Positions 9,277-45,259 are shown, counted from the first letter of the stretch. The stretch is DNA of 64,000 nt from Deltaproteobacteria bacterium (GCA_016186995.1 JACPKQ010000027.1:61022-125021); one strand, 5' to 3'. Notes: a model not told the origin generated them from the sequence alone. Program-made: numbers and translations.

Positions 9277-11460
9277 ATGAATGTTAGATACCAAGACATT
9301 TTAAAACTTTTGCAATCTCCTCATTACAAACCCTGTTCTTTTTCTGAACTGGCTTCTTATTTAAGAATACCTCGTAAAAGCAAAAGACAACTTCGAAAAC
9401 TTCTTAAAGATTTAGAAAATCAGGGGAAAATCACCATCAATAAAAACAAATGCTATGAACGAGCACGTGAAGATAACTTTACAACAGGCACTATTTCAAA
9501 GCATGCTCGCGGCTTTGCATTTCTTTTGCCTGATGATCAAAAAATTGAAGATATTTTTATTAAACCAAGCGATCTTAAAGATGCTATGAGTGGCGATAAA
9601 GTTGCAGTGAGCGTAAGGCAGTTTCAAAGAAAAGGGGGAAAAAGTTTACGTGGACAGGTTATTAAAATTATTGAACGGGCCCACAAAATAGCAAGTGGTG
9701 TTCTTACCCAAAAAGGATATGAATATCTTGTTCAAACAGGCTTTGGCGAAAATTTTAGAATATCTAAAAAAAATCTTGGCATGGCACAAGTAAAAGATCT
9801 TGTTAAAATCGAAGTTATTGTCTTTCCAAGAGTCCACCAAATAGGTGAAGCAAAGGTTATTCAAGTTCTAGGTCCACAAGGACACCCCCAAGCAGAAACA
9901 GAATCTATTATTGCAAATCATAAACTTTATACAGAGTTTCACCCACACACTCTTCATGAAGTACAAAGCTTGCCAGAAAAAATAGATGAAAAAGATTTAG
10001 AACGAAGAAAAGATTTAAGAGAACTACCCTTTGTGACTATCGATGGAGAAGATGCCAGAGATTTTGATGATGCTGTTTATGTTCAAAAAAAAGATATGGG
10101 TTTTAAACTTTTCGTATCCATAGCCGATGTTGCCCATTACGTTAAAAATGGCAGCCCTACTGATAAAGATGCTTACTTACGAGGTTGTAGCACTTATTTT
10201 CCAGATAAAGTACTTCCTATGTTACCTGAAAAGCTTTCTAACAACCTGTGTAGTTTAAGACCTGGGGAAGATAGACTTACTCTGACCTGCGAAATGGATT
10301 TTTTAAATGATGGAACACGATCACGTTATAAAATTTATGAAAGTGTCATTCGAAGCCAAGCACGTCTTACCTATACAGAAATACAATCTCTTTTTGAGCA
10401 AACAACTGTCATTGCGAGTGACACGAAGCAATCCCATCGCGATAGCGATGAGATCACCACGGTCGTTACACTCCCTCGTGATGACAATCCCAGTTTTAAA
10501 AATGCTTATGAGCTTTTTAAAATTCTAAAAGACCAAAAAACAAAAAGAGGAGCTCTTGATTTTGATCTTCCAGAACCTTACGTCATAGTGGACGAAACAG
10601 GAAAAACAACAGATATCAAAAAAAGAGCACGATATGAATCACACATGCTTATTGAAGAATTTATGATTGCGGCTAACGAAGCAGTAGCTTGTGAACTTAT
10701 TCAAAAAAATATTCCAGCACTTTTTAGAACCCATGAGAAACCTGATAAGGAAAAAACACATGCTTTAAGAATTCTCCTTCATAATTTAGGTTATCAAGGG
10801 CTTTTAACCGGAGAAAGTGTTCAAGAGTTTTCAAGAGTTCTCGATGAAATAAGTGGAAAACCAGAAGAACATTTTATTAATTTTGTCCTTTTAAGATCTA
10901 TGAAGCAAGCTTGCTATACCCCTGATAATCCTAAGCATTTTGCCCTTGCAAGCCCCTATTATACGCACTTTACCTCACCTATACGAAGATACCCAGACTT
11001 GATTGTTCACAGGCATCTTAAATATCTTAATAAAAACACTCCTTTAGCCGATAAAGAATTGCATCAAATAAAAAAAATATTGGTCGAAAAAGGAAGGCAT
11101 CTTTCAGAAAGAGAAAGAATTTCACAAGAAGCAGAACGTGAAGTTGTTCTTTATAAACAAGTTCTCTTCATGAAAGATAAAGAAGGGGAAGAATTTCACG
11201 GAAGAATCTCTGGCGTTAAAGAATTTGGAATTTTCGTTGAACTTGGAGAATATTTTGTAGAGGGTCTCATTCCAATAGGCGCACTTACAGATGATTATTA
11301 CCAATTTTCAGAAAGTGAATTTTTATTAAGAGGCATGAAATTTAATAAAGAATATAAATTAGGAAACCCTCTTAAAGTAAGAATTCAAAGTGTCAATGTC
11401 GCCAAAAGAGAAATTGATCTCATTGTCATTCTGAGTGATAGCGAAGAATCTAAAGTATGA
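9277..11460 (+). CDS. rnr: Ribonuclease R, with an in-frame repeat-derived insert
   Basis: This 727-residue 3'-5' exoribonuclease has an N-terminal winged-helix segment, cold-shock-like domains, the RNB catalytic domain (metal-binding motif TIDGEDARDFDDAVY near residue 255, then YTHFTSPIRRYPDL) and a C-terminal S1 domain (FHGRISGVKEFGIFVEL). Residues 378-403 are a foreign 26-residue stretch encoded by a palindromic repeat that is exactly 78 bp and keeps the frame. The last residues (VILSDSEES) come from a second repeat type. The stop codon overlaps the start of the next gene (ATGA), so the two are probably co-transcribed. Function should be turnover of structured RNA in the cytoplasm. Confidence 0.95.
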   Translation: MNVRYQDILKLLQSPHYKPCSFSELASYLRIPRKSKRQLRKLLKDLENQGKITINKNKCYERAREDNFTTGTISKHARGFAFLLPDDQKIEDIFIKPSDLKDAMSGDKVAVSVRQFQRKGGKSLRGQVIKIIERAHKIASGVLTQKGYEYLVQTGFGENFRISKKNLGMAQVKDLVKIEVIVFPRVHQIGEAKVIQVLGPQGHPQAETESIIANHKLYTEFHPHTLHEVQSLPEKIDEKDLERRKDLRELPFVTIDGEDARDFDDAVYVQKKDMGFKLFVSIADVAHYVKNGSPTDKDAYLRGCSTYFPDKVLPMLPEKLSNNLCSLRPGEDRLTLTCEMDFLNDGTRSRYKIYESVIRSQARLTYTEIQSLFEQTTVIASDTKQSHRDSDEITTVVTLPRDDNPSFKNAYELFKILKDQKTKRGALDFDLPEPYVIVDETGKTTDIKKRARYESHMLIEEFMIAANEAVACELIQKNIPALFRTHEKPDKEKTHALRILLHNLGYQGLLTGESVQEFSRVLDEISGKPEEHFINFVLLRSMKQACYTPDNPKHFALASPYYTHFTSPIRRYPDLIVHRHLKYLNKNTPLADKELHQIKKILVEKGRHLSERERISQEAEREVVLYKQVLFMKDKEGEEFHGRISGVKEFGIFVELGEYFVEGLIPIGALTDDYYQFSESEFLLRGMKFNKEYKLGNPLKVRIQSVNVAKREIDLIVILSDSEESKV
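10408..10485 (+). repeat. GTCATTGCGAG-type palindromic repeat inside rnr
   Basis: A 78-bp unit beginning GTCATTGCGAG and ending CTCGTGATGAC, related to intergenic copies at 16938-17044 and 33322-33428. It contains the internal palindrome ATCGCGATAGCGAT. It is 26 codons long, has no stop in the reading frame used, and encodes residues 378-403 of RNase R. Confidence 0.85.
11425..11451 (+). repeat. GTCATTCTGAG-type repeat forming the rnr C-terminus
   Basis: GTCATTCTGAGTGATAGCGA followed by AGAATCT is the same short unit seen at 19283 and 28589. Here it encodes VILSDSEES, the last residues of RNase R apart from the final two. Confidence 0.75.
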
Positions 11461-13127
11461 AGGTTTTTAAAATTGGATCACAGATTGGTCAAACAGTACG
11501 AAACGTAGGACGTTTCCGTACCATTCTTTCTGTTTTTGCAAAACATGGCTTTGGTGAAATTGTTGAAAGGGTGAACCTTTCAAGATTTCTTCCTTTTAAA
11601 CTGAGAAGAAAAAAAGAAGATCTTAAAAAATTAAGTGTGGCCGAAAGGCTTCGCATTTGTTTTGAAGATTTAGGACCTACTTTTGTAAAATTAGGGCAGC
11701 TTTTAAGTACACGTCCTGACATGATTCCAGAAGATTTGTGCAACGAACTCAAAAAACTTCAAGACCAAGTTCCTCCTCTTGAATTTGAAAAAATAAAACC
11801 TTTTATTGAAAAAGAATTTGGAAAACCCATCCACGAAGTTTTTTCGAAATTTAAAGATATTCCTTTTGCCGCTGCTTCAATTGCTCAAGTTCATGAAGCA
11901 GAGCTTCTAACAGGAGAAGAGGTTGTTGTTAAAATCAGGCGCCCTGACATCGAAGATAGGGTTAAAACAGATGTTCAACTTCTTCACATTATAGCCGGGC
12001 TTCTTGATAAATATATTCCAGAGGTAAAACCTTTTAATCCTATGGGTCAAGTGAATGAATTTGAACGTTCTTTAAAACAAGAACTTAATTTTCTTATTGA
12101 AGCTAATAATATGATACGAATTAAAGAAAATATGAAAGATGTTGAAGATGTCCTGATCCCTCATGTCTACAAAGAATTGACTACCTCACATATTCTCACC
12201 CAGGAAAAAATTAAAGGTATTCGTCTTTCAAATATTAAAAAAATTAAATCACAAAAAAATATAAATACCAAAAAGCTTACCCACACAGGGGTTCAAGCTT
12301 TTTACAAACAAGTCATGATTGACGGACTTTTCCACGGAGATCTTCATGCAGGAAATCTCTTTGTCATAGAAGATTCAAAATTGGGTATGGTTGATTTTGG
12401 AATTGTAGGACATCTTACAAAACAAATTCGCACAGCTCTTACAAATATGTTTTTGTGCCTTATCAGTGAAGACTACGAAACCCTTGTATATGAGTTTTTA
12501 GATATCGGTTCTCAAAAAGGAAAGGTAAACATTCAAGCTTTGCAAAGTGATATTAAAGCACTTTTAGAACCCTACTATGGAATGCCCCTTAAAGATTTTA
12601 ATGTGGGACGTCTCTTACTGGACCTCACCGTGTGTGCAAGCAGGCATAATATTCAAATGTCTCAAGATCTTATGCTTGTTTCAAAAGCTATTATTACTAT
12701 TGAAGGCATGGGAAAAGAACTTGATCCTGAATTCGATTTACTTTCAGAAATGACATACTTTTCAAAAGAAATTTTTAAAGATCGATACAACCCAGCCAAA
12801 CTTGGAAAAGAAATGATCTGGTTACTTCAAGATTTTTCTGGGGTTTTAAGAACCTTGCCCAGATACCTTAAACAAATCATTCGAAAACAAACCTCAGATG
12901 ATTTTACCTACCGTGTTGAAATCGAACACCTTGAAAACCTTATGAAAGAGCTTTCTCAAAGCCATAAATATCAAGGCCACATGATGTTTGCTTCATTTTT
13001 GGTTCTTTCTTCCACCCTTCTCATTATTTACAAAATTGGCCCTATCTTTTTAGGATTTTCTCTTTGTGGTGTTTTTGGTTTAGGATTTTCGCTCTTTTTA
13101 GCCCTTATTTTATTCCTTCGCTCATAG
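11457..13127 (+). CDS. ubiB: UbiB/AarF/ABC1-family protein kinase-like ATPase
   Basis: A 556-residue protein with the ABC1/UbiB signature: the KxGQ motif (KLGQLLSTRPD), an alanine-rich nucleotide loop (FAAASIAQVHEAEL), the catalytic-loop equivalent (DGLFHGDLHAGNLF), the metal-binding DFG (MVDFGIVGHL), and two C-terminal transmembrane helices. Family members act at the inner membrane and support ubiquinone or other isoprenoid-lipid metabolism. No other quinone-synthesis genes are nearby, so the exact role is open. It overlaps rnr by 4 bp. Confidence 0.88.
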   Translation: MKVFKIGSQIGQTVRNVGRFRTILSVFAKHGFGEIVERVNLSRFLPFKLRRKKEDLKKLSVAERLRICFEDLGPTFVKLGQLLSTRPDMIPEDLCNELKKLQDQVPPLEFEKIKPFIEKEFGKPIHEVFSKFKDIPFAAASIAQVHEAELLTGEEVVVKIRRPDIEDRVKTDVQLLHIIAGLLDKYIPEVKPFNPMGQVNEFERSLKQELNFLIEANNMIRIKENMKDVEDVLIPHVYKELTTSHILTQEKIKGIRLSNIKKIKSQKNINTKKLTHTGVQAFYKQVMIDGLFHGDLHAGNLFVIEDSKLGMVDFGIVGHLTKQIRTALTNMFLCLISEDYETLVYEFLDIGSQKGKVNIQALQSDIKALLEPYYGMPLKDFNVGRLLLDLTVCASRHNIQMSQDLMLVSKAIITIEGMGKELDPEFDLLSEMTYFSKEIFKDRYNPAKLGKEMIWLLQDFSGVLRTLPRYLKQIIRKQTSDDFTYRVEIEHLENLMKELSQSHKYQGHMMFASFLVLSSTLLIIYKIGPIFLGFSLCGVFGLGFSLFLALILFLRS

Positions 13128-14336: not shown

Positions 14337-14480
14337 CTTCTGGATCCCGGATAGTGCTAACGCACTTCCGGGATGACAGAAAAAATGTCATTCCAGAAGT
14401 CCGAAGGACTATCTGGAATCCAGGAATTCAATAAATACTAGATCCCCGCTTGTGCCTGCGGCTTCAGGCGGGGATGACAG
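14337..14480. repeat. Three back-to-back GTCATCCCGG-type palindromes
   Basis: Three units in a row: TTCTGGATCCCGGATAG...GGGATGAC (14337-14378), GTCATTCCAGAAG...CTGGAATCCAG (14386-14422) and TAGATCCCCGC...GGCGGGGATGACAG (14439-14480). Each is an imperfect inverted repeat able to form a hairpin. They fill the gap between two convergent genes and may also end transcription there. Confidence 0.75.
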
Positions 14481-15111: not shown

Positions 15112-15298
15112 AGAAAAGTTTCCCTATCCAGTTATTTGGGTTAAAAACTTTGATCTATGTTTATATAAAAGGGAACTGTCCCTTGCTGTGGTGTGCATGC
15201 CCTCCTTAAAATGAGGGAAGCCTAAAGCAGCAAAATGGTACCCACTTGGAAAAAGGTATCAAAGGTTTTTGACAAATAATGCTCAAGATAGGGAATTA
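15112..15298 (+). ncRNA. ssrS: 6S RNA
   Basis: This gene-free stretch folds as one long interrupted hairpin typical of 6S RNA. TTCCCTATC (15120-15128) pairs with GATAGGGAA (15287-15295). AAAAACTTTGAT (15143-15154) pairs with ATCAAAGGTTTTT (15258-15270), with one bulge. GGGAAC (15171) faces GTACCC (15238). TTGCTG (15183-15188) pairs with CAGCAA (15228-15233), and GCCCTC with GAGGG near the apex. The large internal loop in the middle is where 6S RNA mimics an open promoter and holds sigma-70 RNA polymerase. Length of about 185 nt fits, and an intrinsic terminator follows at once. The call rests on fold and context, not on a database match. Confidence 0.75.
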
Positions 15299-15300
15299 AA

Positions 15301-15328
15301 AGCCCCGAGAAATTCTCGGGGCTTTTTT
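15301..15328 (+). terminator. Intrinsic terminator of the 6S RNA
   Basis: AGCCCCGAGA-AAT-TCTCGGGGCT, a perfect 10-bp GC-rich stem with a 3-nt loop, followed by TTTTTT. Confidence 0.9.
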
Positions 15329-15375
15329 ATACATATCGTTGACAGTTTAATTTATAAAATAGTAGTTTTAGAGGC

Positions 15376-15951
15376 ATGTCTCTATCACAAAAAGTCCTTA
15401 TAGCAGAAAAGAGTATTACTATCCAAAAAGCCATTCACATTGCATTAAAAAACGCTTCATTTGAAATAAAAAGTGTTTCTTCTTTTGAAGATCTTGAAAA
15501 ACTTGCTCACGCTTGGCACCCCAATTTCATACTTTTAGATACTAAAATTCTAAAAAACTCTTGTCAAAGCTCTTGCGAAGGGCTCAGAAAAAATCTTCAA
15601 GTGTCATCCCGGAAATGCGAAGCATTATCCGGGATAAAAATTGTTTTATTACACAGCCCACTTGAAGATTTAGATGCAAAAAATATCCACATGTTAGGGG
15701 CTGATGAAGCTTTGATGAAGCCTTTCGATGCAGAGAGTTTACTAAAAAAACTGGTTCCTTTAAATGTCATCCCGGAAGCACAAAGTGCTATCCGGGATCC
15801 AGAACCCCTGGATTCCTGCCTTCACATAGAACCCCAAATTGAAAAACTGGCAAAAGAAATTGTCGAAAAAATCACCTGGGAAGTTGTTCCCCGCCTCTCT
15901 GAACAAATGATTCGTGAAGAACTTAATAAACTCCTTAAAAAACCATCTTAA
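15376..15951 (+). CDS. Receiver-domain protein with two repeat-derived inserts
   Basis: A 191-residue protein with a CheY-like fold: beta1 KVLIAEK, phospho-acceptor Asp55 in FILLDTK, beta4 IKIVLLHS, and the conserved Lys in LMKPFD. The acidic pair after beta1 is altered (Glu-Lys), so phosphorylation should be checked. The C-terminal segment IVEKITWEVVPRLSEQMIREE resembles tails of receiver proteins in myxobacteria-type genomes. Two GTCATCCCGG-type palindromes are translated in frame: one between the phospho-Asp and beta4, the other after the domain. There is no DNA-binding output domain. It lies 3 bp upstream of nadC. Confidence 0.78.
   Translation: MSLSQKVLIAEKSITIQKAIHIALKNASFEIKSVSSFEDLEKLAHAWHPNFILLDTKILKNSCQSSCEGLRKNLQVSSRKCEALSGIKIVLLHSPLEDLDAKNIHMLGADEALMKPFDAESLLKKLVPLNVIPEAQSAIRDPEPLDSCLHIEPQIEKLAKEIVEKITWEVVPRLSEQMIREELNKLLKKPS
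15603..15636 (+). repeat. GTCATCCCGG-type palindrome inside the receiver gene (first)
   Basis: GTCATCCCGGAAATGCGAAG followed by CATTATCCGGGAT forms an inverted repeat (ATCCCGG...CCGGGAT). It is translated as about 11 residues in the loop before beta4 of the receiver domain. Confidence 0.75.
15766..15820 (+). repeat. GTCATCCCGG-type palindrome inside the receiver gene (second)
   Basis: GTCATCCCGGAAGCACAAAG, then TGCTATCCGGGATCCAG and a partial second unit CCCCTGGATTCC. It encodes the linker between the receiver domain and the C-terminal tail. Confidence 0.75.
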
Positions 15952-15954
15952 AAA

Positions 15955-16788
15955 ATGCTTTTATCAAAAAAAGAAGTTCAAACTCTAGTTCAAAAAGCTC
16001 TCAAAGAAGATATTGGAAAGGGTGATATGACAGCTCTTGCTCTTATTCCTCAGAATTTGAAAGGGGTTGCAACTGTTACTTTAAAAGAAGAGGCGATTAT
16101 TTGTGGACTTTTTCTTTTAAAATATTTTTTTCCAAAATCTTTTGAGGTTACCTGCCATTACAAAGATGGAAAACGTATCAAAAAAAATACTGTTCTTCTT
16201 AAAATAAAAGGCAACTATAGAATCCTTCTTGAACGTGAACGAACTTTTTTGAATTTTCTAGGTCATCTTTCAGGAATTGCAACCCTGACTCATCACTTTG
16301 TTACATCGTGTAACAATAAAGATATTAAAATTATGGATACCAGAAAAACAACTCCTCTTTTAAGAGGACTTCAAAAATACGCTGTTAAAATAGGAGGGGG
16401 GTCTAACCACAGAAAAGGTCTTTATGATGAGGTGCTTATAAAAGAAAATCATATCAATGCTGTAGGCGGGGTTTACAAGGCCGTTTCACGTGCTCATCAA
16501 AAATACCCCAATAAAAAAATTGAAATAGAGGTTAGAAGCCTTAAAGAAGTTAAAGAGGCTCTAAGGGCCAGCGCCTCTATTCTTTTGCTTGATAACATGT
16601 CACTTCCTCACATAAATAAGTCTATTAAAATTATTAAAAACAAAGCTCACATAGAAGTTTCAGGAGGTGTAACGCTTAAAAATATTAAAAAATATGGGCA
16701 TCTTAAAATAAACCGCATTTCTATTGGCGCCCTTACTCACTCCTCACATTGCATTGACCTTAGCATGTGGATAGAGAAATATGGATAA
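15955..16788 (+). CDS. nadC: Nicotinate-nucleotide pyrophosphorylase (quinolinate phosphoribosyltransferase)
   Basis: A 277-residue enzyme that converts quinolinate and PRPP to nicotinate mononucleotide in de novo NAD synthesis. Seen motifs are EDIGKGDMTALAL near the N-terminus, ERTFLNFLGHLSGIAT, DTRKTTPLLRGLQKYAVKIGGGSNHR (residues about 126-151), EVRSLKEVKEAL, LLDNMSLPHI and VSGGVTLKNI, all characteristic of the type II phosphoribosyltransferase fold. Length is typical. nadA and nadB are not in the window. The gene starts 3 bp after the receiver gene and is followed by a dense repeat block. Confidence 0.95.
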   Translation: MLLSKKEVQTLVQKALKEDIGKGDMTALALIPQNLKGVATVTLKEEAIICGLFLLKYFFPKSFEVTCHYKDGKRIKKNTVLLKIKGNYRILLERERTFLNFLGHLSGIATLTHHFVTSCNNKDIKIMDTRKTTPLLRGLQKYAVKIGGGSNHRKGLYDEVLIKENHINAVGGVYKAVSRAHQKYPNKKIEIEVRSLKEVKEALRASASILLLDNMSLPHINKSIKIIKNKAHIEVSGGVTLKNIKKYGHLKINRISIGALTHSSHCIDLSMWIEKYG

Positions 16789-16815
16789 AAGATAGTGGGG
16801 GAACCTCCCGAAATG

Positions 16816-16857
16816 GTCAGTGTCTTCCGCTTCATGGCTCGCTGTAGTTGTCCCACG
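16816..16857 (-). repeat. Truncated end of a MITE-1 element
   Basis: CTTCCGCTTCATGGCTCGCT and TGTAGTTGTCCCAC match the end of the MITE-1 copies at 17049 and 33092 in the opposite orientation. It is cut off at 16858 by another repeat module. Confidence 0.65.
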
Positions 16858-16930
16858 ACCTTGGTTCTGAATTGGGGATATTTTTTTTCTCCAAAACGTG
16901 CGAAAAAAAATACACCCCAATTCTCTCATG
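16858..16930. repeat. CCTTGGTTCTGA repeat module
   Basis: Begins ACCTTGGTTCTGAATTGGGG and ends CCCCAATTCTCTCAT, so ATTGGGG/CCCCAAT form inverted arms around an AT-rich middle that itself contains TTTTTTTTCT...CGAAAAAAAA. Related copies are at 18825-18846 (partial), 33436-33514 and 60057-60103. No coding content. Confidence 0.65.
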
Positions 16931-16937
16931 GTTACGT

Positions 16938-17044
16938 GTCATTGCGAGCGTAGCGAAGCAATCTCCTAGAATTGCTAAAGCAATTCTAGGACAACACTTG
17001 CGTGTTGAGATCGCCACGGTTCATTTTATGAACCTCGCGATGAC
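16938..17044. repeat. GTCATTGCGAG-type palindromic repeat, 107 bp
   Basis: Starts GTCATTGCGAGCGTAGCGAA and ends CCTCGCGATGAC. It contains the internal palindrome CCTAGAATTGC...GCAATTCTAGG and the inverted pair CAACACTTGCGTGTTG. It is the reverse complement of 33322-33428 with a single visible mismatch over 107 bp, which indicates recent duplication or gene conversion. Confidence 0.85.
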
Positions 17045-17048
17045 AGCA

Positions 17049-17225
17049 TTCGAATTTATGTGGAAAAAATGGTTACTATCTGGAACGGAAGTAAAGCGGA
17101 GCCCACGGTTTGTAAGTATTTAGAACTGCGCATCCCGGACAGTGCTTTAGCACTTACGGGATAAAGAAGAATTCATGTGGGACAACTACAGCGAGCCATG
17201 AAGTGAAAGATAGTAACCATTTTTA
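17049..17225 (+). mobile_element. MITE-1 element (non-autonomous, TIR-bounded)
   Basis: Left end TTCGAATTTATGTGGAAAAA then ATGGTTACTATCT; right end AGATAGTAACCATTTTT. The TIRs bracket a core with GGAAGTAAAGCG, CATCCCGGACAGTGC, ACTTACGGGAT and ACAACTACAGCGAGCCATGAAG. Full or near-full copies lie at 19089-19278 and 33092-33266. It has no reading frame of note, so it fits a miniature inverted-repeat element moved by a transposase elsewhere. The remainder of the gap to birA (17226-17324) shows nothing recognisable. Confidence 0.7.
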
Positions 17226-17324
17226 AGAACCTAAATACAAAATAAGAGCATTATTCCTATTTCTCAGATATTTGTGAAAATTTGAACTTGTCTTTTTGAG
17301 CCACCATGAATAAAAAAGAAGTAT

Positions 17325-19088: not shown

Positions 19089-19278
19089 TTCGAATCTATG
19101 TGAAAAAATGGTTGCTATCTGTAGCGGAAGTAAAGCGCAGCCCGCAGTTTGTAAATACTGAGAACTATGCATCCCGGACAGTGCTTTAGCACTTACGGGA
19201 TTAAGAGGAGTTCGTGTTGGATAACTACAGCGAGCCATGTAGCGAAAGATAGCAACCATTTTTTAACATAAACTCGAA
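19089..19278 (+). mobile_element. MITE-1 element, most complete copy
   Basis: About 190 bp with both long terminal inverted repeats: TTCGAATCTATGTGAAAAAA-TGGTTGCTATCT on the left and AGATAGCAACCATTTTTTAA-CATAAACTCGAA on the right. The core matches the copy at 17049 closely. No reading frame worth reporting. Confidence 0.75.
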
Positions 19279-19282: not shown

Positions 19283-19340
19283 GTCATTCTGAGCGCAGCG
19301 AAGAATATACTTCGTGGGCGAAAAAGGGCACTTTGTGCCC
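19283..19340. repeat. GTCATTCTGAG-type repeat plus hairpin
   Basis: GTCATTCTGAGCGCAGCGAA then GAATATACTTCG, followed by the hairpin GGGCACTTTGTGCCC. It is the same short unit as in the rnr C-terminus and at 28589. Confidence 0.6.
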
Positions 19341-22019: not shown

Positions 22020-22173
22020 AAGAGATAGTGATAGTACTTACTGAGGGTCGTGTCGGAAGGTAATCTGGCTTGGTCTGCATAGTATATGCAGCAGATTACC
22101 TGAGACGCGAGGCGCACTTTTTCGCAGGAAAAAAGTGACGCCGTACCCGAAGGAAGTACTATCACTATCTCTT
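22020..22173 (+). mobile_element. MITE-2 element (154 bp)
   Basis: Terminal inverted repeats AAGAGATAGTGATAGTACTT and AAGTACTATCACTATCTCTT are exact complements. The core contains AGGGTCGTGTCGGAAGG, a CTGCATAGTATATGCAG palindrome and GCGCACTTTTTCGCAGG. A second 154-bp copy, inverted and nearly identical in its core, lies at 28361-28514. No gene inside. Confidence 0.75.
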
Positions 22174-22967: not shown

Positions 22968-23049
22968 GTCATCACGAGGGTTCTTACAAGAACCCGTGGT
23001 GATCCCATCACCAAAGGTGATGAGATTGCTTCGTTTCACTCGCAATGAC
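22968..23049. repeat. GTCATTGCGAG-type palindromic repeat
   Basis: 82 bp from GTCATCACGAGGG to ACTCGCAATGAC, with internal inverted pairs GGTTCTTACAAGAACC and CATCACCAAAGGTGATG. It lies immediately upstream of the outer-membrane gene and downstream of asd. Confidence 0.75.
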
Positions 23050-23056: not shown

Positions 23057-24118
23057 TTATGACGTCAGTAACGTCTCTAAAATTTGAACTGCGTTTAAAG
23101 CTGCACCTTTACGTAAATTATCTGAAACAACCCACATATTAAGCCCAGAGTTAAGAGAAGGATCTCTTCGAATTCTTCCTACAAAAACCTCATCCCGACC
23201 TCTCGCCTCAACATTTAAAGGATAAACGTGTGCTTTTGGATTATCAAGTACTTTTACACCAGGAAAAGCCCCTAAATCATTTTTAATATCTTCCAACTTA
23301 AAAGCACTTTCAAACTCAATATTCACAGATTCTGAATGTGAATCAAGTACAGGTACCCTCACAGCCGTACATGTGATTTTAAGTTCTGGAAGACCCATTA
23401 TTTTTCTGGTTTCGTTGATGACTTTGATTTCTTCAAATGTATAACCACTTTCATCAAATTGATCGATGTGGGGAATACAATTAAATGCAATTTGATGTGA
23501 AAAAACATTTTTCATTAAGGTAGCTTCGCTTTGTGGATTCCCGCTATTACTTTCAGTTAATTGCAGGAATGACAGTCTTTTTAAAAAATCTGTAGTTTGG
23601 GTTCTTAATTCTTCTTGAGCTTTATGTCCCGCTCCTGAATGTGCTTGATAGGTTGAAACAACAACTCTTTTAATTCTATACTTTTCAAGTGGTTTTAAAA
23701 CCATGACAAGTTGTATGGTAGAGCAATTAGGATTTGCAATAATCTCTGGTTCTTTTCTATTCAGCGTATGCGCATTCACTTCAGGAACAACAAGCGGAAT
23801 CCTCTCATCCATACGAAAAGCACTTGAGTTATCAATCACTGTTATTCCATTTCGAAGTGCAATCGGAGCAAACTCTTGCGCCAGAGTTTTTCCAGCTGAA
23901 AAAATAGCATAATCAATATTTCTTTCAAAAACCTCTGGAACAAGCCTTTCTACGCTCAACATTTTTTCCTGAAAAGGAATTTTCACCCCTTCACTTCGTT
24001 CACTTGCAAAAAGAGAAAACTTTTCGAGGTGGAGGTTTTTGTGCTCTAGAATAGATAAAACTTCTCGCCCCACAGCACCTGTGGCTCCTACAAGAGCTAA
24101 ATGGATAGGTTTTTTCAA
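23057..24118 (-). CDS. asd: Aspartate-semialdehyde dehydrogenase, with a repeat-derived insert
   Basis: A 353-residue enzyme that reduces aspartyl phosphate to the semialdehyde for Lys/diaminopimelate, Met and Thr synthesis. Seen are the nucleotide loop VGATGAVGREVLSIL, the catalytic-Cys motif IANPNCSTIQLVM, the QAHSGAGHKAQEE loop, and the later HIDQFDESGYTFEE and TCTAVRVPVLDSHSE. Between RTQTTDFLKR and NVFSHQIAFNCIPHID the protein carries about 18 extra residues (LSFLQLTESNSGNPQSEA) encoded by a palindromic repeat. The insert falls in a loop that varies across the family, so the enzyme is probably active. pssA starts 9 bp upstream. Confidence 0.93.
   Translation of the reverse strand: MKKPIHLALVGATGAVGREVLSILEHKNLHLEKFSLFASERSEGVKIPFQEKMLSVERLVPEVFERNIDYAIFSAGKTLAQEFAPIALRNGITVIDNSSAFRMDERIPLVVPEVNAHTLNRKEPEIIANPNCSTIQLVMVLKPLEKYRIKRVVVSTYQAHSGAGHKAQEELRTQTTDFLKRLSFLQLTESNSGNPQSEATLMKNVFSHQIAFNCIPHIDQFDESGYTFEEIKVINETRKIMGLPELKITCTAVRVPVLDSHSESVNIEFESAFKLEDIKNDLGAFPGVKVLDNPKAHVYPLNVEARGRDEVFVGRIRRDPSLNSGLNMWVVSDNLRKGAALNAVQILETLLTS
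23523..23576 (-). repeat. Palindromic repeat inside asd
   Basis: On the reverse strand TGTCATTCCTGCAATTAACT ... AGCGGGAATCCACAAAGCGA is an imperfect inverted repeat (ATTCCTGC / GCGGGAAT) of the GTCATCCCGG group. It is read in frame and gives about 18 residues of the Asd protein. Confidence 0.7.
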
Positions 24119-25545: not shown

Positions 25546-25617
25546 TTCAAGTATACTAAAAAAAGGCTACTAGAAAGTCAATTTATACGCTAGGCTATGA
25601 AGTATCTTTTTTTCAAT

Positions 25618-25699
25618 GTCATTCCCGCACTTAGCCAAAGGCACAAGCGGGAATCTAAATATTGGATCCCAGACAGCACTTTGTGCTTCTGGGATGACA
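25618..25699. repeat. Two GTCATCCCGG-type palindromes before the M48 gene
   Basis: GTCATTCCCGCACTTAGCC...AGCGGGAATCTA (25618-25656) and TTGGATCCCAGACAGCACTT-TGTGCTTCTGGGATGACAG (25662-25700). They form the leader of the protease gene, and the AGGA at the end may serve as its ribosome site. Confidence 0.75.
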
Positions 25700-25710
25700 G
25701 GAAAATAATT

Positions 25711-26532: not shown

Positions 26533-27618
26533 ATGAATTCTCTCACATCCCAAGAAAAAGATTTTATCAAGCACTCTTTAAATCAAGAAAACTTTGCAAT
26601 AGAAAAACTAGCAGGAGATGTTTCAACACGACAATATTTTAGAATCACATTGCCGTCATTGCGAGTACCCTTCCCGTCATTGCGAGTGAAACGAAGCAAT
26701 CCCATCGCGGTAGCGATGAGATCGCCACAGTTTCCTAAAGGAAACTTCGCGATGACAAATCATGACATATATTCTTTTATCCTTATGAAGGCAGAACCCA
26801 ATACCCTTCCACCCTTTATTGAGGCAGCTCATTATCTTAAAAAAGGAGGTTTATCAGTCCCTGCCATTTTTAAATCTCACAAAGCTTTAGGACTCCTTCT
26901 TTTAGAAGATGGTGGTAATATGCTCCTAGAAAGCATTGCCCAAAAAAATCTTTCGACATCCCTTCCCTTTTACAAAAAAGCTTTAAAAGAACTTGTTCTT
27001 CTTCAAACAAAGCTCACTCGTTCTTCCAAAAAGTTCTCAGCGAAAAATATTTCTTTTACAGAGGAAAAATTTTTGGATGAACTTCTTTACATGAAGGAAG
27101 AACTATTTAAAAAATATCTCAAAATAAAAATGAATGAAAAACTCATGGACCAAGAACTTAAAAAACTTTCAAAAAAAATAACGAAAATTCCTTATTGTTT
27201 ATGCCATAGAGATTTTCATAGTCGCAACATTCTTGTATATGATAAAAAAATCATGATTCTTGATTTTCAAGATATAAGAATGGGCCCGTTTCAATATGAT
27301 GTTGCCTCCCTTCTAAGAGATTCTTATATTTCTTTTAAAGAAAAAGAAGAAAAAAAACTTCTCACATTTTATTTTAAAACCCACAAAGAAGAAAAATCCT
27401 CTTTCAACCCAGAAGAGTTTTTAGAACATTATGATGAGGTTTCTCTGCAAAGAAGCCTTAAAGCCTGTGGAACTTTCGCAGGCGTATGGGGAAGAACCCA
27501 AAGCACGTACTATCTTAAATACATACCCAATGCTCTTATATGGATTCGAAAAGTTCTTTCAAAAAAACACAAAGAATATCCTTATCTATATGATATTATT
27601 AAGGAAATAAAACTATGA
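26533..27618 (+). CDS. amgK: N-acetylmuramate/N-acetylglucosamine 1-kinase AmgK, with a repeat-derived insert
   Basis: A 361-residue APH-fold sugar kinase. The catalytic loop is CHRDFHSRNILV and the metal-binding segment ILDFQDIRMGPFQYDVASLL, both close to AmgK of the pseudomonad recycling pathway. It overlaps murU by 4 bp, which is the strongest argument for the identity. Product: MurNAc or GlcNAc alpha-1-phosphate. Residues about 41-75 come from a 102-bp palindromic repeat block inserted between RQYFRI and YSFILMKAEP, in the N-lobe beta-sheet that binds ATP. Whether the kinase tolerates this is an open point. Confidence 0.85.
   Translation: MNSLTSQEKDFIKHSLNQENFAIEKLAGDVSTRQYFRITLPSLRVPFPSLRVKRSNPIAVAMRSPQFPKGNFAMTNHDIYSFILMKAEPNTLPPFIEAAHYLKKGGLSVPAIFKSHKALGLLLLEDGGNMLLESIAQKNLSTSLPFYKKALKELVLLQTKLTRSSKKFSAKNISFTEEKFLDELLYMKEELFKKYLKIKMNEKLMDQELKKLSKKITKIPYCLCHRDFHSRNILVYDKKIMILDFQDIRMGPFQYDVASLLRDSYISFKEKEEKKLLTFYFKTHKEEKSSFNPEEFLEHYDEVSLQRSLKACGTFAGVWGRTQSTYYLKYIPNALIWIRKVLSKKHKEYPYLYDIIKEIKL
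26655..26756 (+). repeat. GTCATTGCGAG-type repeat inside amgK
   Basis: A short partial unit GTCATTGCGAGTACCC followed by a full unit GTCATTGCGAGTGAAACGAA ... CTTCGCGATGAC, 102 bp in total (34 codons). The internal palindromes ATCGCGGTAGCGAT and TTTCCTAAAGGAAA are present. No stop occurs in the amgK frame. Confidence 0.85.
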
Positions 27619-28360: not shown

Positions 28361-28514
28361 AAAAGATAAGGATAGTACTTCCTTCGGGTACGGCGTCACT
28401 TTTTTCCTGCGAAAAAGTGCGCCTCGCGTCTCAGTCAATCTGCTGCATATACTATGCAGACCAAGCCAGATTGCCTTCCGACACGACCCTCTGTAAGCAC
28501 TATCCCTATCTTTT
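28361..28514 (-). mobile_element. MITE-2 element, inverted copy (154 bp)
   Basis: AAAGATAAGGATAGTACTTC at the left and AAGCACTATCCCTATCTTTT at the right are the terminal repeats. The core is the reverse complement of the copy at 22020-22173 with only a few differences, and the length is the same. It lies 23 bp after the murU stop. Confidence 0.75.
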
Positions 28515-28529: not shown

Positions 28530-28585
28530 TTTCGAGTTCATGTGAAAAAATGGTTGCTATCTGGAGCGGAAATAAAGCGCAGCCC
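28530..28585 (+). mobile_element. Truncated MITE-1 element
   Basis: TTTCGAGTTCATGTGAAAAA-ATGGTTGCTATCTGGAGCGGAA matches the left third of MITE-1. It stops at GCAGCCC, where a GTCATTCTGAG-type repeat begins, suggesting insertion of that repeat followed by loss of the rest. Confidence 0.65.
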
Positions 28586-28588
28586 TCT

Positions 28589-28652
28589 TGTCATTCTGAG
28601 CAACGCGAAGAATATAATTCGTATTATACCCTTCACTACGTTCAGGGTGACA
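28589..28652. repeat. GTCATTCTGAG-type repeat
   Basis: GTCATTCTGAGCAACGCGAA-GAAT ... CTTCACTACGTTCAGGGTGACAGG, an imperfect inverted pair at the breakpoint of the truncated MITE-1. Confidence 0.65.
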
Positions 28653-31199: not shown

Positions 31200-32044
31200 A
31201 TTTTCTTTTCCGTGTCATCCCGGAATTGCGATGGCAATTTCCGGGAAGGGTCACATTTTTGCAAAAGTCCATCCCCTAAGAAATTAAAACCCAATACTGT
31301 CATCATGATAGCAAAAAGAGGGGGAAGTAATAAATGAATTCTTGAAATATCTGATATATGCCTTCGTGCTTGATCAAGCATCATACCCCAACTTGATAAA
31401 TCTCCCCCTGTGCCCACCCCTAGAAAACTTAAACTGCTTTCTGCAATAATCACTCCTGCCATTCCAAAACTAGCTTGAATAAAAAGTGGTGCTAAAATAT
31501 TTGGCCACACATGTTTTGCAACAATTCTTGCATTAGAAAAACCAAGTGCCCGTGCAGAAATAATAAATTCCTTTTCTCTTATGGAAAGAATTTGACCTCG
31601 CACAAGCCTTGCATAGCTTGTCCATCCTGTGATCGTGAGAGCTAAAATAATATTATGTGCTGATCTTTCTAAAAGTGCTGCAATACCAATAGCTAATAAA
31701 ATACCGGGAAAGGCTAAAAAGACATCGACTATTCTCATAAGAAGTTGATCAACCCATTTTCCAAAAAAAGCCGCAAAAGAACCAAAAATCAACCCAATCA
31801 AACAGCAGAAAAAAGTTGTCACAACTGAAACATAAAGAGAAAGCCTTGCTCCATAAACAAGATTTGTAAAAACATCGGCTCCGTACTCATCTTGACCCAA
31901 AATATGCTTAAAACTGGGCCCAGCAAACCGATGACTTAAATCCTGATAAGAGGGTGTATAGGATGTCAGATAGGGTGAAACAATCCCAAGAAAGCTGATA
32001 AGAAAAACAAGAACAAAGCCTATGAACAAAAATTTATTTTTCAT
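31196..32044 (-). CDS. Peptide-type ABC transporter permease (DppC/OppC family)
   Basis: A 282-residue inner-membrane permease with an N-terminal helix and extended periplasmic loop (YTPSYQDLSHRFAGPSFKHILGQDEYGADVFTNLV, typical of OppC in spaced parts), five more helices, and the EAA loop SARALGFSNARIVAKHVWPN that meets the ATPase. It pairs with the upstream OppB-type gene (4-bp overlap). The last about 12 residues are encoded by a palindromic repeat. No substrate-binding protein or ATPase gene is nearby. Position between anmK and nagZ makes muropeptide or peptide import a reasonable guess, but that is inference. Confidence 0.88.
   Translation of the reverse strand: MKNKFLFIGFVLVFLISFLGIVSPYLTSYTPSYQDLSHRFAGPSFKHILGQDEYGADVFTNLVYGARLSLYVSVVTTFFCCLIGLIFGSFAAFFGKWVDQLLMRIVDVFLAFPGILLAIGIAALLERSAHNIILALTITGWTSYARLVRGQILSIREKEFIISARALGFSNARIVAKHVWPNILAPLFIQASFGMAGVIIAESSLSFLGVGTGGDLSSWGMMLDQARRHISDISRIHLLLPPLFAIMMTVLGFNFLGDGLLQKCDPSRKLPSQFRDDTEKKI
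31213..31246 (-). repeat. GTCATCCCGG-type repeat forming the OppC C-terminus
   Basis: On the plus strand GTCATCCCGGAATTGCGATG-GCAATTTCCGGGA is an imperfect palindrome. Read on the reverse strand in the permease frame it encodes most of SRKLPSQFRDD near the C-terminus. Confidence 0.75.
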
Positions 32045-33067: not shown

Positions 33068-33091
33068 ATTTTAATTACGACCTTGGTTCTT

Positions 33092-33266
33092 AAAATGGTT
33101 GCTATCTTTCGCTTCATGGCTCGCTGTAGTTATCCAACATGAACTCCTATTAATCCCGTAAGTGCTAAAGCACTGTCCGGGATGCATAGTTTTGAATATT
33201 TACAAACCGTGTGCTGCGCTTTACTTCCACTCCAGACAGTAACCATTTTTTAACATAAACTCGAAT
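33092..33266 (-). mobile_element. MITE-1 element, inverted copy
   Basis: AAAATGGTTGCTATCTTTCG ... GACAGTAACCATTTTTTAAC-ATAAACTCGAA. The core is the reverse complement of the copies at 17049 and 19089. The outer part of the left TIR is missing, replaced by the CCTTGGTTCT word of the neighbouring module. Confidence 0.72.
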
Positions 33267-33321: not shown

Positions 33322-33428
33322 GTCATCGCGAGGTTCATGAAATGAACCGTGGCGATCTCAACACGCAAGTGTTGTCCTAGAATTGCTTTAGCAATTCTAG
33401 GAGATTGCTTCGCTACGCTCGCAATGAC
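33322..33428. repeat. GTCATTGCGAG-type repeat, 107 bp, inverted twin of 16938-17044
   Basis: GTCATCGCGAGGTTCATGAA ... GCTACGCTCGCAATGAC. It differs from the reverse complement of 16938-17044 at one visible position. Confidence 0.85.
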
Positions 33429-33435
33429 ACGTATC

Positions 33436-33514
33436 CATGAGAGAGTAGGGACTGGGTGTTTTGTTGCACGTTCAGGAAACAAAACACCCTCCCTACTCAG
33501 AACCAAGATTGTAG
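33436..33514. repeat. CCTTGGTTCTGA repeat module, inverted copy
   Basis: CATGAGAGAGTAGGGACTGG-GTGTTTTG ... CAAAACACCC-TCCCTACTCAGAACCAAGATTGTAG: inverted arms around TTGCACGTTCAGGAAA. The arm sequence differs from the 16858 copy while the ends are shared, as if arms co-vary. Confidence 0.65.
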
Positions 33515-33515
33515 A

Positions 33516-33572
33516 AAAAGATGGATCCTTCGCTTCACTCAGGATGACAGCGAGCCATGAAGCGGAAGACAT
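33516..33572. repeat. GTCATTCTGAG-type unit joined to a MITE-1 end fragment
   Basis: AGATGGATCCTTCGCTTCAC-TCAGGATGACAG runs straight into CAGCGAGCCATGAAGCGGAA-GAC, the end of MITE-1. With the three preceding repeats this mirrors the order found at 16816-17225. Confidence 0.6.
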
Positions 33573-33619: not shown

Positions 33620-34708
33620 ATGAAAGATTTAAAGAATCTTGTGGGTTCACATTTCATGTTTGGCCTGGGAGGCACAAGCCTTTCTCAAACAACCATCTCT
33701 TTTATTAAAGAAGTAAGGCCTGCTGGTTTTATTATTATGGGAGAAAATTATGAATCTCCAGAACAAATCCATGATCTTTGTGTCGATCTTCAAACCATAA
33801 GCAAGGAACCTCTTCTTATCGGGGTCGATCAAGAAGGGGGGCGAGTTGCAAGGCTCAAGGAACCCTTCATTAAAATTCCCAAAGCTTCCTTGATAGGTGA
33901 AAAAAACTCTCCAAAATGGACATTTGATCTTTACCATGCGCTCGGAAAAGAGCTTCGTTCTGTAGGTATTAACCTTGATTTTGCTCCCGTGTGCGACATT
34001 CTTACAAACCCAAAAAATAAAGTTATTGGCGATAGATCTTTTAGCTCAGATCTAAAAATTGTTGAATCTCTTACTTCAGCAAGTGTTCGAGGGCTTCAAA
34101 AAGCAGGGGTCATAGCCTGTGCTAAACACTACCCAGGGCACGGAGATACTTTAGAAGACTCTCATGAAAGCCTTCCTCATGTAAAAACCCAGCTTAAAAC
34201 TCTTGAATCAAGGGAGCTTGCCGCTTTTAAAAAAGCCATAAAAAGTGGCGTCGAAACAATCATGACGGCTCATCTTATGTGTGATGCACTGGATAAAGAT
34301 ATGCCCACTACACTTTCTGTCAAAGCACTTCAAAAATTAAGGAAAGACCTGCGTTTTTCTGGGCTTATCATTTCAGACGATATGAATATGGGTGCCATTT
34401 CAGAAGTACAAATGGAAGAAGATGCTCTTTATTTAGCAGTTGAAGCAGGTATTGATCTTCTTCTTTACTGCGACCCTCTCCATGACCATCATAAAAAAGT
34501 TTTTGAATATCTTTATAAAAAAACAGAAAAAGATTCTTCCTTTTTAAAAAAACTTCAAGAATCCTACAAAAGGCTCCAAAAAATTAAAGATGAATATCTT
34601 GTCGACCCACTTCCGCCCAAAGATGCTTGGAAAAATATCGTAGGTTCTCAAGAACACTCTGTCATCTCCTTTTGTCATCACGAGGAGCCTGAAAAGGCGA
34701 CGTGGTGA
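33620..34708 (+). CDS. nagZ: Beta-N-acetylhexosaminidase
   Basis: A 362-residue GH3 enzyme that removes GlcNAc from GlcNAc-anhydroMurNAc(-peptide) during cell-wall recycling. Seen are LLIGVDQEGGRVARL, the LDFAPVCDI segment, KHYPGHGDTLEDSH (the catalytic Asp-His loop typical of NagZ) and the nucleophile motif LIISDDMNMGAI. There is no signal peptide, so it acts in the cytoplasm, as expected. The reading frame runs into a palindromic repeat, which supplies the last about 11 residues (CHHEEPEKATW) and the stop codon. It is near anmK, amgK and murU. Confidence 0.93.
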   Translation: MKDLKNLVGSHFMFGLGGTSLSQTTISFIKEVRPAGFIIMGENYESPEQIHDLCVDLQTISKEPLLIGVDQEGGRVARLKEPFIKIPKASLIGEKNSPKWTFDLYHALGKELRSVGINLDFAPVCDILTNPKNKVIGDRSFSSDLKIVESLTSASVRGLQKAGVIACAKHYPGHGDTLEDSHESLPHVKTQLKTLESRELAAFKKAIKSGVETIMTAHLMCDALDKDMPTTLSVKALQKLRKDLRFSGLIISDDMNMGAISEVQMEEDALYLAVEAGIDLLLYCDPLHDHHKKVFEYLYKKTEKDSSFLKKLQESYKRLQKIKDEYLVDPLPPKDAWKNIVGSQEHSVISFCHHEEPEKATW

Positions 34709-34755
34709 TCCCATCGCATTAGCGATGAGATTGCTTCGCTAACGCTCGCAATGAC
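34674..34755. repeat. GTCATTGCGAG-type repeat overlapping the nagZ stop
   Basis: 82 bp from GTCATCACGAGGAGCCTGAA to GCTCGCAATGAC with the internal palindrome CATCGCATTAGCGATG. Its first 35 bases are the end of nagZ. Confidence 0.8.
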
Positions 34756-34806: not shown

Positions 34807-36450
34807 TTATATTTTTATCGTCATTCCAGGGGTTTTTTTCGTGTGCTTACCCTTTTTAATCACCATTTCGCCATTGACGAACACATATTCAATGCCCTTA
34901 GGATAATGAAGCGGGTCTAAAAAGGTTGAGGTATCTTGAAGTTTTTCATAGTCAAAGGCCACAAGATCAGCATAATAACCAGCCTTAATCTTGCCCCGTT
35001 TCGCAAGGCCAAAGCGCTCTGCAGGTTGAACGGTCATTTTTTTAACAGCCTCTTCGAGGGTTAAAATTTTCTTCTTTTTTACATATTCTGAAATCACTCG
35101 TGGAAAGGTTCCAAAAGCCCTAGGGTGAAGGGCTCCTTTGCTTAAACGCCCCTCACAACTTCGGCACCCACTATCGGATCCAATCATAACATATTCTTTT
35201 TTAAGAATTCTTTCTAAATTTTCTTCACTCATCGCATGATAAATAGCTGAAACTTTTGTTTCTTCTTGAATGAGAAGGTCCATAACAAAATCAAGCGGGT
35301 GTACTTTTAATTTTTGAGCTGCTTCTGAAACTCTTTTTCCTTCGTATTTTTTATTTTTTTGCGATGGCACTTCCATAATTTGCACAGTGTCGTAGTAACC
35401 CGAATCATATTTTTTTGAGAGTTCCTGATGTATATCTTTTCTAAATTTTATATCTTTAAGATTTTGAATCAGTTTTTTTTCGCCACCGTCATACACCCAA
35501 CTTGGAAGCACTTGCTGAAGTCCTGTTTGTGCTGCTGTATAAGGGTATCTGTCACACATGACATCAACACCCTCTTTAATGGCTGTTTCGATCACATCAA
35601 AAACCTTATCAATTTTATTCCAGTTTCTTTTTCCAAAAGTTTTAAGGTGAGAAATTTGAATTTTACACCCTGTTTTTCGGCCCACATTGAGGGTTTCAGA
35701 AATAGCCTCTAAAACAAGATCATTTTCATTACGCATGTGAAAAGCAAAAATTTTACCGTGTTTTTTACACATTTTTCCTAATTCCAAAAGTTCTTTTTCA
35801 TCGGCATAACAAGCAGGTGGGTACACAAGCCCCGTTGAAAGCCCGATAGCTCCTTCGTGAAAAGCCTCTTCAAGCTTTGAACATATATTCTTTATTTCTT
35901 GCTGAGTCAGTTTTCGATTGACAACCCCTGTTTCAGACTCACGCAGTGTATTATGCCCCACCAAATGAGCATAATTCATTGAAATATGCAGTTTTTTCAA
36001 AGTTTTAAAATACTCTGAAAGACTCGACCAAGGCAGTTTTAAACTTTCATACTTTTCATAATCTTCAATTCTTTTTGCCTGACAACTTCCCCACACAGGC
36101 GCTGCTGAATAACCACAATTCCCCCCAATATCTGTTGTCACTCCTTGATACACTTTGGCATCGGCTGTGTGATTCATCAGTAAAAAATAATCTGAGTGTG
36201 CATGACAATCAATAAACCCAGGCACAACAACAAGTTTTGTAAGATCTAAAACCTTGTCATAGCGAGGAGCCTGAAAAGGCGACGTGGCTATCTCATCGCT
36301 ACCGCGATGGGATTGCTTCACATTCGTTCGCAATGACGAAGGGCTTGTTTGCAATGACGGCAAGGGTGAAAACAACCCGTTTTGAATAGAAAATGAAGAA
36401 CCTAAAAAATTAAAAAACGATTGCTTAAGTTGAATTGACAAGTAACTCAC
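34807..36450 (-). CDS. N-acyl-D-amino-acid deacylase, with repeat-derived N-terminal insert
   Basis: A 547-residue amidohydrolase. VVPGFIDCHAHSDYFLL carries the HxH metal ligands, GNCGYSAAP and GLSTGLVYPPACYADEKEL are typical of D-aminoacylases, and HMRNE, ISHLKTFG and MIGSDSG carry further ligands and the catalytic Asp. It hydrolyses N-acyl-D-amino acids; next to nagZ this could serve salvage of D-amino acids from wall peptides (inference). The usual small N-terminal beta domain is poor: residues about 30-65 are encoded by a GTCATTGCGAG-type repeat block. Confidence 0.88.
   Translation of the reverse strand: MSYLSIQLKQSFFNFLGSSFSIQNGLFSPLPSLQTSPSSLRTNVKQSHRGSDEIATSPFQAPRYDKVLDLTKLVVVPGFIDCHAHSDYFLLMNHTADAKVYQGVTTDIGGNCGYSAAPVWGSCQAKRIEDYEKYESLKLPWSSLSEYFKTLKKLHISMNYAHLVGHNTLRESETGVVNRKLTQQEIKNICSKLEEAFHEGAIGLSTGLVYPPACYADEKELLELGKMCKKHGKIFAFHMRNENDLVLEAISETLNVGRKTGCKIQISHLKTFGKRNWNKIDKVFDVIETAIKEGVDVMCDRYPYTAAQTGLQQVLPSWVYDGGEKKLIQNLKDIKFRKDIHQELSKKYDSGYYDTVQIMEVPSQKNKKYEGKRVSEAAQKLKVHPLDFVMDLLIQEETKVSAIYHAMSEENLERILKKEYVMIGSDSGCRSCEGRLSKGALHPRAFGTFPRVISEYVKKKKILTLEEAVKKMTVQPAERFGLAKRGKIKAGYYADLVAFDYEKLQDTSTFLDPLHYPKGIEYVFVNGEMVIKKGKHTKKTPGMTIKI
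36256..36358 (-). repeat. GTCATTGCGAG-type repeat inside the D-aminoacylase gene
   Basis: On the plus strand GTCATAGCGAGGAGCCTGAA ... TTCGTTCGCAATGAC, then a partial second unit ending GCAATGAC at 36358. It is about 102 bp and in frame. The gene ATG at 36450 is upstream of it, so the repeat is translated unless a later start is used. Confidence 0.78.
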
Positions 36451-36491: not shown

Positions 36492-36562
36492 GTCATCACG
36501 AGCGCAGCGTGGTGATCTCATCACCTTTGGTGATGGGATTGCTTCGTTGCACTCGCAATGAC
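36492..36562. repeat. GTCATTGCGAG-type palindromic repeat
   Basis: GTCATCACGAGCGCAGCGTG-GTGATCTCATCACC ... TTGCACTCGCAATGAC, with CATCACCTTTGGTGATG as inner hairpin. It lies just upstream of the D-aminoacylase gene, which itself contains another copy. Confidence 0.75.
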
Positions 36563-41648: not shown

Positions 41649-41666
41649 CACCCCAAACAAGCGCGG

Positions 41667-41694: not shown

Positions 41695-41774
41695 CCCCTA
41701 TTAAATCTCTCGCCGACAGAATCAATGAACATGATCTTGAAGATGTCAAGGAAGTGTCAAAAAACTCTTTAATA

Positions 41775-42059: not shown

Positions 42060-42325
42060 AAAATAAATTTTTTCTCTTTAGCTATTTTTTTCTTAATCAT
42101 GAGAAACATTTTTCTATGATCAATTTCCTCTCCCATTTGAGAGGAAAGCTCTTGCATCATTTTTTGTACCTGGATGTCAATGGCCCTTTCATCATCGCAA
42201 TTTTTTTGAATGGTATCTTTGATAATTCTCAAGACTTCTTGATTGACTTCAACGCAGTTTTTCTCTGAAAGATTTGAGGCAATCATTTTTGCAATTTGAT
42301 CTATTTGAACTTGAAATAGTGACAT
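42056..42325 (-). CDS. DUF507 family protein (first of a pair)
   Basis: An about 89-residue protein beginning MSLFQVQIDQIAKMIASNL at ATG 42325; an upstream TTG at 42346 is less likely. Its helical layout (RIIKDTIQKNCDDERAIDIQVQKMMQEL) parallels the next gene. Both are translationally coupled. DUF507 proteins are commonly found as such pairs. No function is known. Confidence 0.72.
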   Translation of the reverse strand: MSLFQVQIDQIAKMIASNLSEKNCVEVNQEVLRIIKDTIQKNCDDERAIDIQVQKMMQELSSQMGEEIDHRKMFLMIKKKIAKEKKFIL

Positions 42326-42393
42326 AAAATTACCCCATCGTGACAATGTGAAGAAATAGCAGTATCTGAAGTGTAAGTAAAGCTTGGGATAAA

Positions 42394-44658: not shown

Positions 44659-44683
44659 GTTTTTTATAAGGTGATTATATTAT

Positions 44684-44714
44684 AAGAGATAGGGAAGTAC
44701 TATCCCTATCTCTT
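44684..44714. repeat. Solo MITE-2 terminal repeats
   Basis: AAGAGATAGGGAAGTACTAT-CCCTATCTCTT is a 31-bp palindrome made only of the MITE-2 end sequences, with no core. It could be a deletion product, and it may act as a hairpin at the end of the PBP transcript. Confidence 0.6.
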
Positions 44715-44746
44715 AAACTAAATTACGTTATGTAAACAGAAACAAA

Positions 44747-45256
44747 ATGATGAGATCAAAAAAAATAATTCTATTATTATTGCTGACCACTTCATGTTCT
44801 TTCTTTGAAAGAAAAAGTATTTACAACACTCAGCTTGATTTTGAACCTCAAACACAACAAGAAATTTCAGCGCTTCTCACAATTGAAGAGGGGGTTCTAG
44901 CTCTTTCAGAGAAAAACATTCTCAACGCAAAAAAAAACTTTGAAAATGCAATTGTGATAGATAGGAAAAACCCCTATTCTTATTTTTTTCTTGGGGTGAT
45001 TGCAATTCGAGAAGAAAACCCACAAAAGGCCTTAGGTTACTTTCAAAGAACACTTTCACTTTTACAAAATAAAGACTTTTGGCTTGCACAAACTTATAAA
45101 TATTTAGGAATCTCTAACTATATTCTTGAACAAAATAAAACAGCACAAAGTTTTTTTATAAAATCACAAACTCTAAATTCGGAAGATAAAGAGGTAGAAG
45201 AATATCTTAAGCTTCTTCTGGATTCTTCCCCCGGATCAAGTTCGGGGTCAGAATGA
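44747..45256 (+). CDS. TPR lipoprotein
   Basis: A 169-residue protein with signal peptide and lipobox (LTTSC, Cys about 17), followed by two to three TPR units (ALSEKNILNAKKNFENAIVIDRKNPYSYFFLGVIAIREENPQKAL in parts, then YKYLGISNYILEQNKTAQSFFIKSQTL). Such lipoproteins often assist outer-membrane or cell-wall complexes. Its position directly after the PBP gene suggests, without proof, a role as its partner. The last about 11 residues (SSPGSSSGSE) are encoded by a palindromic repeat. Confidence 0.78.
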   Translation: MMRSKKIILLLLLTTSCSFFERKSIYNTQLDFEPQTQQEISALLTIEEGVLALSEKNILNAKKNFENAIVIDRKNPYSYFFLGVIAIREENPQKALGYFQRTLSLLQNKDFWLAQTYKYLGISNYILEQNKTAQSFFIKSQTLNSEDKEVEEYLKLLLDSSPGSSSGSE

Positions 45257-45259
45257 CAG
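45216..45259. repeat. Palindromic repeat forming the TPR lipoprotein C-terminus
   Basis: TTCTGGATTCTTCCCCCGGA-TCAAGTTCGGGGTCAGAATGACAG. Same group as the units at 14337 and 39547. The gene stop (TGA of AATGACAG) is inside it. Confidence 0.7.

Follow-up and report, generated by a model that had tools for sequence, protein, structure and literature searches.

Palindromic repeats resembling the CGTC REP superfamily are retained in frame within conserved genes of an uncultured 'Deltaproteobacteria' lineage

Short palindromic units that lie inside conserved protein-coding genes may be the work of a system that adds peptides to proteins, or the tolerated remainder of a repeat that inserts anywhere. 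The question is raised by a window of 64,000 nucleotides, the whole stretch of DNA analysed (C19:61022-125021), which belongs to a draft genome of 1,683,499 bases, in 30 contigs and with 93% completeness, from an uncultured 'Deltaproteobacteria' lineage; the nearest relative compared, G001, is a member of the same family. The first-pass annotation had placed palindromic units inside the genes for RNase R, a receiver-domain protein (two units), Asd, AmgK and a D-aminoacylase, and at the 3' ends of those for RNase R, OppC, NagZ and a TPR protein, and all ten named places do hold a unit.

The units fall into three types, with cores GTCATTGCGAG (A, mostly dimers), GTCATTCCCGC/GTCATCCCGG (B) and GTCATTCTGAG (C), and are accompanied by longer MITE-like elements D (~180 bp), E and F, all with inverted repeats. 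D, as seen in the intergenic copy at 17051..17231 (+), has terminal inverted repeats and a B-like unit in the middle; E, as seen in the intergenic copy at 22020..22172 (+), measures 153 bp with terminal inverted repeats of ~30 bp. The units begin with GTC, mostly preceded by T or C, and AT comes first in all consensus units. By eye, the B-unit stem is ATTCCCGC/GCGGGAAT; A and C stems are imperfect, and some loops are longer. The B consensus contains ATCCA and A units end in CCC or CTC. Throughout the genome, 63 A-type spans running from GTC to GAC represent head-to-head dimers.

Repeats of this kind have been described as CGTC REPs (Di Nocera, De Gregorio and Rocco 2013, PMC3733652), which carry a CGTC or TGTC tag, an AT-starting stem of 8-9 bp, a loop of 4-5 nt and a short unpaired tail, often CCA, are predominantly head-to-head dimers, and lie between genes near 3' ends, with some intragenic copies and without a dedicated transposase. 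By tag, dimer form and placement, the units of the window appear to fit this superfamily, its stem and tail features being clear only in B units. Shared are the (C/T)GTC tag, apparently with an AT-starting stem and, in B units, a CCA tail, the head-to-head dimers, the mostly intergenic position closer to 3' ends with some copies in ORFs, the bias towards repair genes and the lack of a dedicated transposase, whereas the present case differs in its host, an uncultured member of the 'Deltaproteobacteria', in the joint occurrence of three CGTC-like types and MITE-like elements, and in its ~40 internal sites in 1.68 Mb. GTAG REPs, which are mobilised by RAYTs, are likewise small palindromes that occur in large numbers between genes and in some cases inside them, but the tag here is GTC, not GTAG, and the genome, at 93% completeness, gave zero matches to PF01797 (Y1_Tnp, RAYT). 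Zero matches were also obtained to PF01609 (DDE_Tnp_1), and none of the widely spaced partial copies could be recognised as a partner of transposase size carrying the ends of D or E.

Within the window, the rnr gene (9277-11460, +) carries an A-type head-to-head dimer of 78 bp (10408..10485, +), which encodes VIASDTKQSHRDSDEITTVVTLPRDD as residues 378-403 of RNase R, and a C-type unit at its 3' end (11425..11460, +), which adds the C-terminal VILSDSEESKV. The receiver-domain gene (15376-15951, +) holds one B-type unit at 15601..15651 (+), in phase with the orthologue, and a second, also in phase, in the linker that follows the receiver domain (15763..15827, +); the B-type unit of asd (23057-24118, -) at 23534..23573 (-) is likewise in phase with the orthologue. 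An A-type dimer plus a half unit, 102 bp in all (26655..26756, +), lies in amgK (26533-27618, +) between two N-lobe strands, and this length, like that of the rnr copy, is as first reported. The D-aminoacylase gene (34807-36450, -) has an A-type dimer close to its N-terminus, at 36256..36337 (-). At gene ends, a B-type unit (31214..31246, +) makes up the C-terminus of OppC (oppC 31196-32044, -), an A-type dimer (34674..34755, +) extends across the nagZ stop at 34708 (nagZ 33620-34708, +), and a CGTC-type unit with approximate boundaries (45219..45257, -) is found at the 3' end of the TPR gene (44747-45256, +). Profile searching also placed a B-type dimer (25617..25706, +) at the 5' end of an M48 peptidase ORF; it probably precedes the real start codon, since the signal-peptide-like MYKLISLILCLFFL comes next.

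Intergenic loci recovered by profile search comprise B-type units at 14337..14479 (+), a C-type unit at 19283..19315 (+), A-type dimers at 22968..23049 (+, 82 bp) and 36492..36562 (+, 71 bp), D elements at 19091..19276 (+) and 33085..33263 (-), and an E element at 28362..28514 (+). Composite loci are a mosaic of D and F fragments with a 107-bp A-type dimer (16811..17044, +; dimer 16938-17044), a D fragment with a C-type dimer (28533..28651, +), and a 107-bp A-type dimer (33322-33428) followed by an F element (33322..33533, +).

Iterated profile searches of the whole genome, with nine seeds all taken from the window, yielded 326 merged repeat loci with a total of 32 kb, an abundance that is far beyond chance. 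Genes were called by a simple hexamer method on contigs rebuilt from stretches, which gave 1494 ORFs (90% coding), and a locus at least 90 bp from both ORF ends was counted as internal. By these definitions 231 loci are intergenic, 34 lie across a gene end, 19 within an ORF but close to one of its ends, and 42 are internal, spread over 36 open ORFs. Coding DNA is far poorer in copies per kb than intergenic DNA, with 42 internal loci per 1.5 Mb of coding sequence vs 284 elsewhere, mostly in ~160 kb of intergenic DNA. Copies outside genes lie at a median distance of 47 bp from 3' ends vs 132 bp from 5' ends, and some of the copies at the 5' ends of ORFs probably precede the real start. Repeat density is uneven between contigs, beyond expectation (chi2 104, 29 df); in the window, positions 36600-60000 are almost free of repeats and border the part of the genome where repeats are densest.

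The reading frame of the hosts was assessed by six-frame translation of 600-bp flanks at each locus, both sides being compared with one foreign ORF; matches at neighbouring positions of that ORF qualified a locus with frame disregarded, which makes the test blind to frame. Both gene halves proved to be in phase with the foreign orthologue at 14/14 qualifying loci, for which the chance expectation is (1/3)^14 (~2e-7), and no broken gene was found among these 14 loci with an orthologue covering the site. The earlier claim that repeats lie in genes in frame, the measured copies being free of stops, is borne out, and phase no better than chance in a set of pseudogenes is not what was found. Nor do orthologues share the insert residues: 22 relatives of RNase R are without residues 378-403 and without the C-terminal tail, 18 relatives of AmgK are without the insert, and in pairwise alignments the insert is likewise absent for TruA, UvrC (two), MutS, Asd, an aminotransferase and a photoproduct-lyase-like protein.

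In AF2 models of RNase R and AmgK, the inserts are predicted to be the disordered part of otherwise well-folded proteins. The RNase R model (mean pLDDT 87) has low values at 377-403, its only such internal segment, and in the tail at 722-727; the only low-pLDDT segment of AmgK (mean 89) is 46-76, between two beta strands. This low confidence is in part forced because homologues are missing at those columns, which weakens it as support for a tolerated insert. The host genes are mostly intact. One host may nevertheless be broken: PurL, of the PurL/PurF ORF pair (C27:16769-18436 and 15250-16836), breaks off near profile position 540 of 720, immediately ahead of PurF, and since both ORFs carry repeats PurL may be truncated or misassembled. 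The pair stands in a row of five adjacent genes, all with repeats (TruA, flavoprotein, photoproduct-lyase-like, PurF and PurL; C27:10964-18436).

We consider it highly probable that CGTC-class REPs multiplied in this genome together with the MITE-like elements D, E and F, inserted widely, and persist in genes as survivors of selection. The REPs, mostly head-to-head dimers, and the D, E and F elements would be copied by an activity acting in trans, as suggested by the failure to find a RAYT, and insertion would be broad, across the genome. Selection would then remove insertions that shift the frame, bring in a stop or fall in a structured part of the protein; the low density of copies in coding DNA is what is expected if most insertions are lost in this way. 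A random insertion would leave an ORF open about once in 12 times, with one quarter of frames open and one third of lengths preserving phase. The minority with an open frame would persist in surface loops, beta-hairpin turns, domain linkers and gene ends as disordered peptides that we take to be nearly neutral. The filter on insertions is clearly visible here in phase, stops and loop placement, and the case is well supported as one of a familiar class of repeat that has now turned up in another lineage, where it burdens genes heavily and is in excess in those for repair.

Pure neutrality alone does not predict that excess. By family matches, repair genes account for 7/36 host ORFs: RecJ, UvrC (two inserts), MutS (three), MutL, RNase HII, a RecB/AddA-like helicase (two) and a photoproduct-lyase-like protein (two). 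An eighth repair host, a UDG-like ORF outside the gene calls (C1:36987-37826), named by similarity and motifs, carries a pair of A units in the linker at its N-terminus. The three inserts of MutS (C10:122882-125476, L167:3482-6076) are separate, the first being a 49-residue mosaic of A and B units, which is missing from G001 MutS, where the matches are adjacent at residues 145 and 194. The binomial P of 7/36 is ~0.001 if repair genes make up 4.7% of coding DNA and ~1e-4 at 3%, both shares being assumed estimates from typical gene lengths. An unexplained bias of CGTC REPs in ORFs towards genes of DNA synthesis and repair was reported in 2013 (PMC3733652), and the same palindrome excess is now repeated in an independent lineage.

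Such an excess could mean that insertions into repair genes are favoured, with hypomorphic alleles of MutS, MutL, UvrC, RecJ and others raising mutation or recombination rates and hitch-hiking with the outcome, an idea put forward speculatively for REPs by Di Nocera et al. (PMC3733652). The eight hosts, the triple insertion in MutS, the low P values and the agreement with an earlier study all speak for it, and a mutator benefit of these inserts is possible. We nonetheless think this reading unlikely, since the repair share of coding DNA is an estimate, the inserts are in frame, so that the hosts are probably functional, and tolerance alone may account for the excess, repair genes being long, built of several domains and for the most part not needed in the short term.

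Relatives bear on where the survivors sit. An A-dimer query gave zero matches in G001-G007, and absence of the element from close relatives was considered; it was rejected on the similar density of exact CGTC cores, 10.1 per 100 kb in G001 vs 11.2 in this genome, which makes the class an old one in the family. G001 has its own, differently built CGTC units at the RecJ site and in the N-terminal linker of the UDG-like protein, and its own CGTC-like unit at the site of the D-aminoacylase insert. It also has further in-frame insertions with no counterpart here, for instance in proteins resembling leucyl-tRNA synthetase and MnmA. In G010, a phylum-level relative from another family, a tandem array of 21-bp GTCATCCCGAG/GTCATCCCGAGGCGAGCTTAC units in mutS (L299:2734-2840) falls in the same beta-hairpin region as an insert here, its frame being hidden by an N gap in the scaffold. 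Related genomes thus have different CGTC units at shared protein sites, which neutrality alone does not predict; recurrent use of one loop would follow if few places tolerate an insert of 10-40 residues, and insertion targeted to these sites is possible. A stronger form, in which palindrome insertion is channelled, by target choice or selection, into repair genes and the same loops in separate lineages and so tunes the mutation and recombination rates of the host, is given a low probability. Tolerance, targeting and advantage can now be told apart by counting over many genomes.

Less probable still is a dedicated peptide-inserting system, such as the first-pass annotation had envisaged by analogy with the Rickettsia palindromic elements, in which a useful or conserved peptide is supplied in a fixed frame. 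The comparison was apt, in that the CGTC superfamily holds R. conorii RPE-6 (CGTC-1) and RPE-4 (CGTC-4) (PMC3733652), and the host is indeed unrelated to Rickettsia. A new kind of system is not supported; what the case adds is an uncultured lineage, remote from Rickettsia, in which REPs lie in frame inside genes. Stop-free insertion in frame in many genes agrees with such a system, as does the statement of a review that every RPE of R. conorii codes for a conserved peptide (PMC10969869); products of RPE-1 are reported to be expressed (cited in PMC3733652). Likened through the family description, RPE-4 and RPE-6 share with the present units the CGTC class and in-frame insertion in ORFs, but here the host is not an obligate intracellular alphaproteobacterium and there is no fixed frame or conserved peptide. 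RPE-1 is also a short palindrome found in frame in many genes, but is a longer element outside the CGTC families, and the conserved peptide that the review ascribes to RPEs is not seen here.

Forward units in genes use all three frames (A 8/10/4, B 7/3/6), and these encode the unrelated peptides VIASxxKQSH, SLRxxRSNP and CHCEERSEA; reverse units are never in the phase in which ATGAC reads as a TGA stop. Length in multiples of three, noted earlier for the rnr and amgK copies, is not a property of the element: the 17 A-type dimer spans called internal, two pairs of which overlap, have lengths of 0, 1 and 2 mod 3 in 7/5/5 cases, so that the junction must complete the reading frame, and the D-aminoacylase copy is 82 bp. 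Stops are not avoided outside genes, where intergenic A copies leave 60/240 frames open vs 74 +- 6 in dinucleotide shuffles and are thus slightly richer in stops. With copies sparse in coding DNA as well, the evidence argues against a system built to insert peptides. That the units are native variable protein regions or chance matches, as the variability of several of these loops in relatives might suggest, is hardly credible and is refuted by the occurrence of these sequence families at hundreds of places between genes and by the RNase R and AmgK relatives that lack the residues.

Two further observations concern the genome at large and the window. A 1035-residue protein (C1:54289-57396) has a full DnaJ at its start and a periplasmic-binding-protein-like end, with an A unit between them, and has a whole-length orthologue in G001 (L250). 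In the window, Rfam matches mark a 6S RNA gene (15118-15298) and a small SRP RNA gene (60164-60262).
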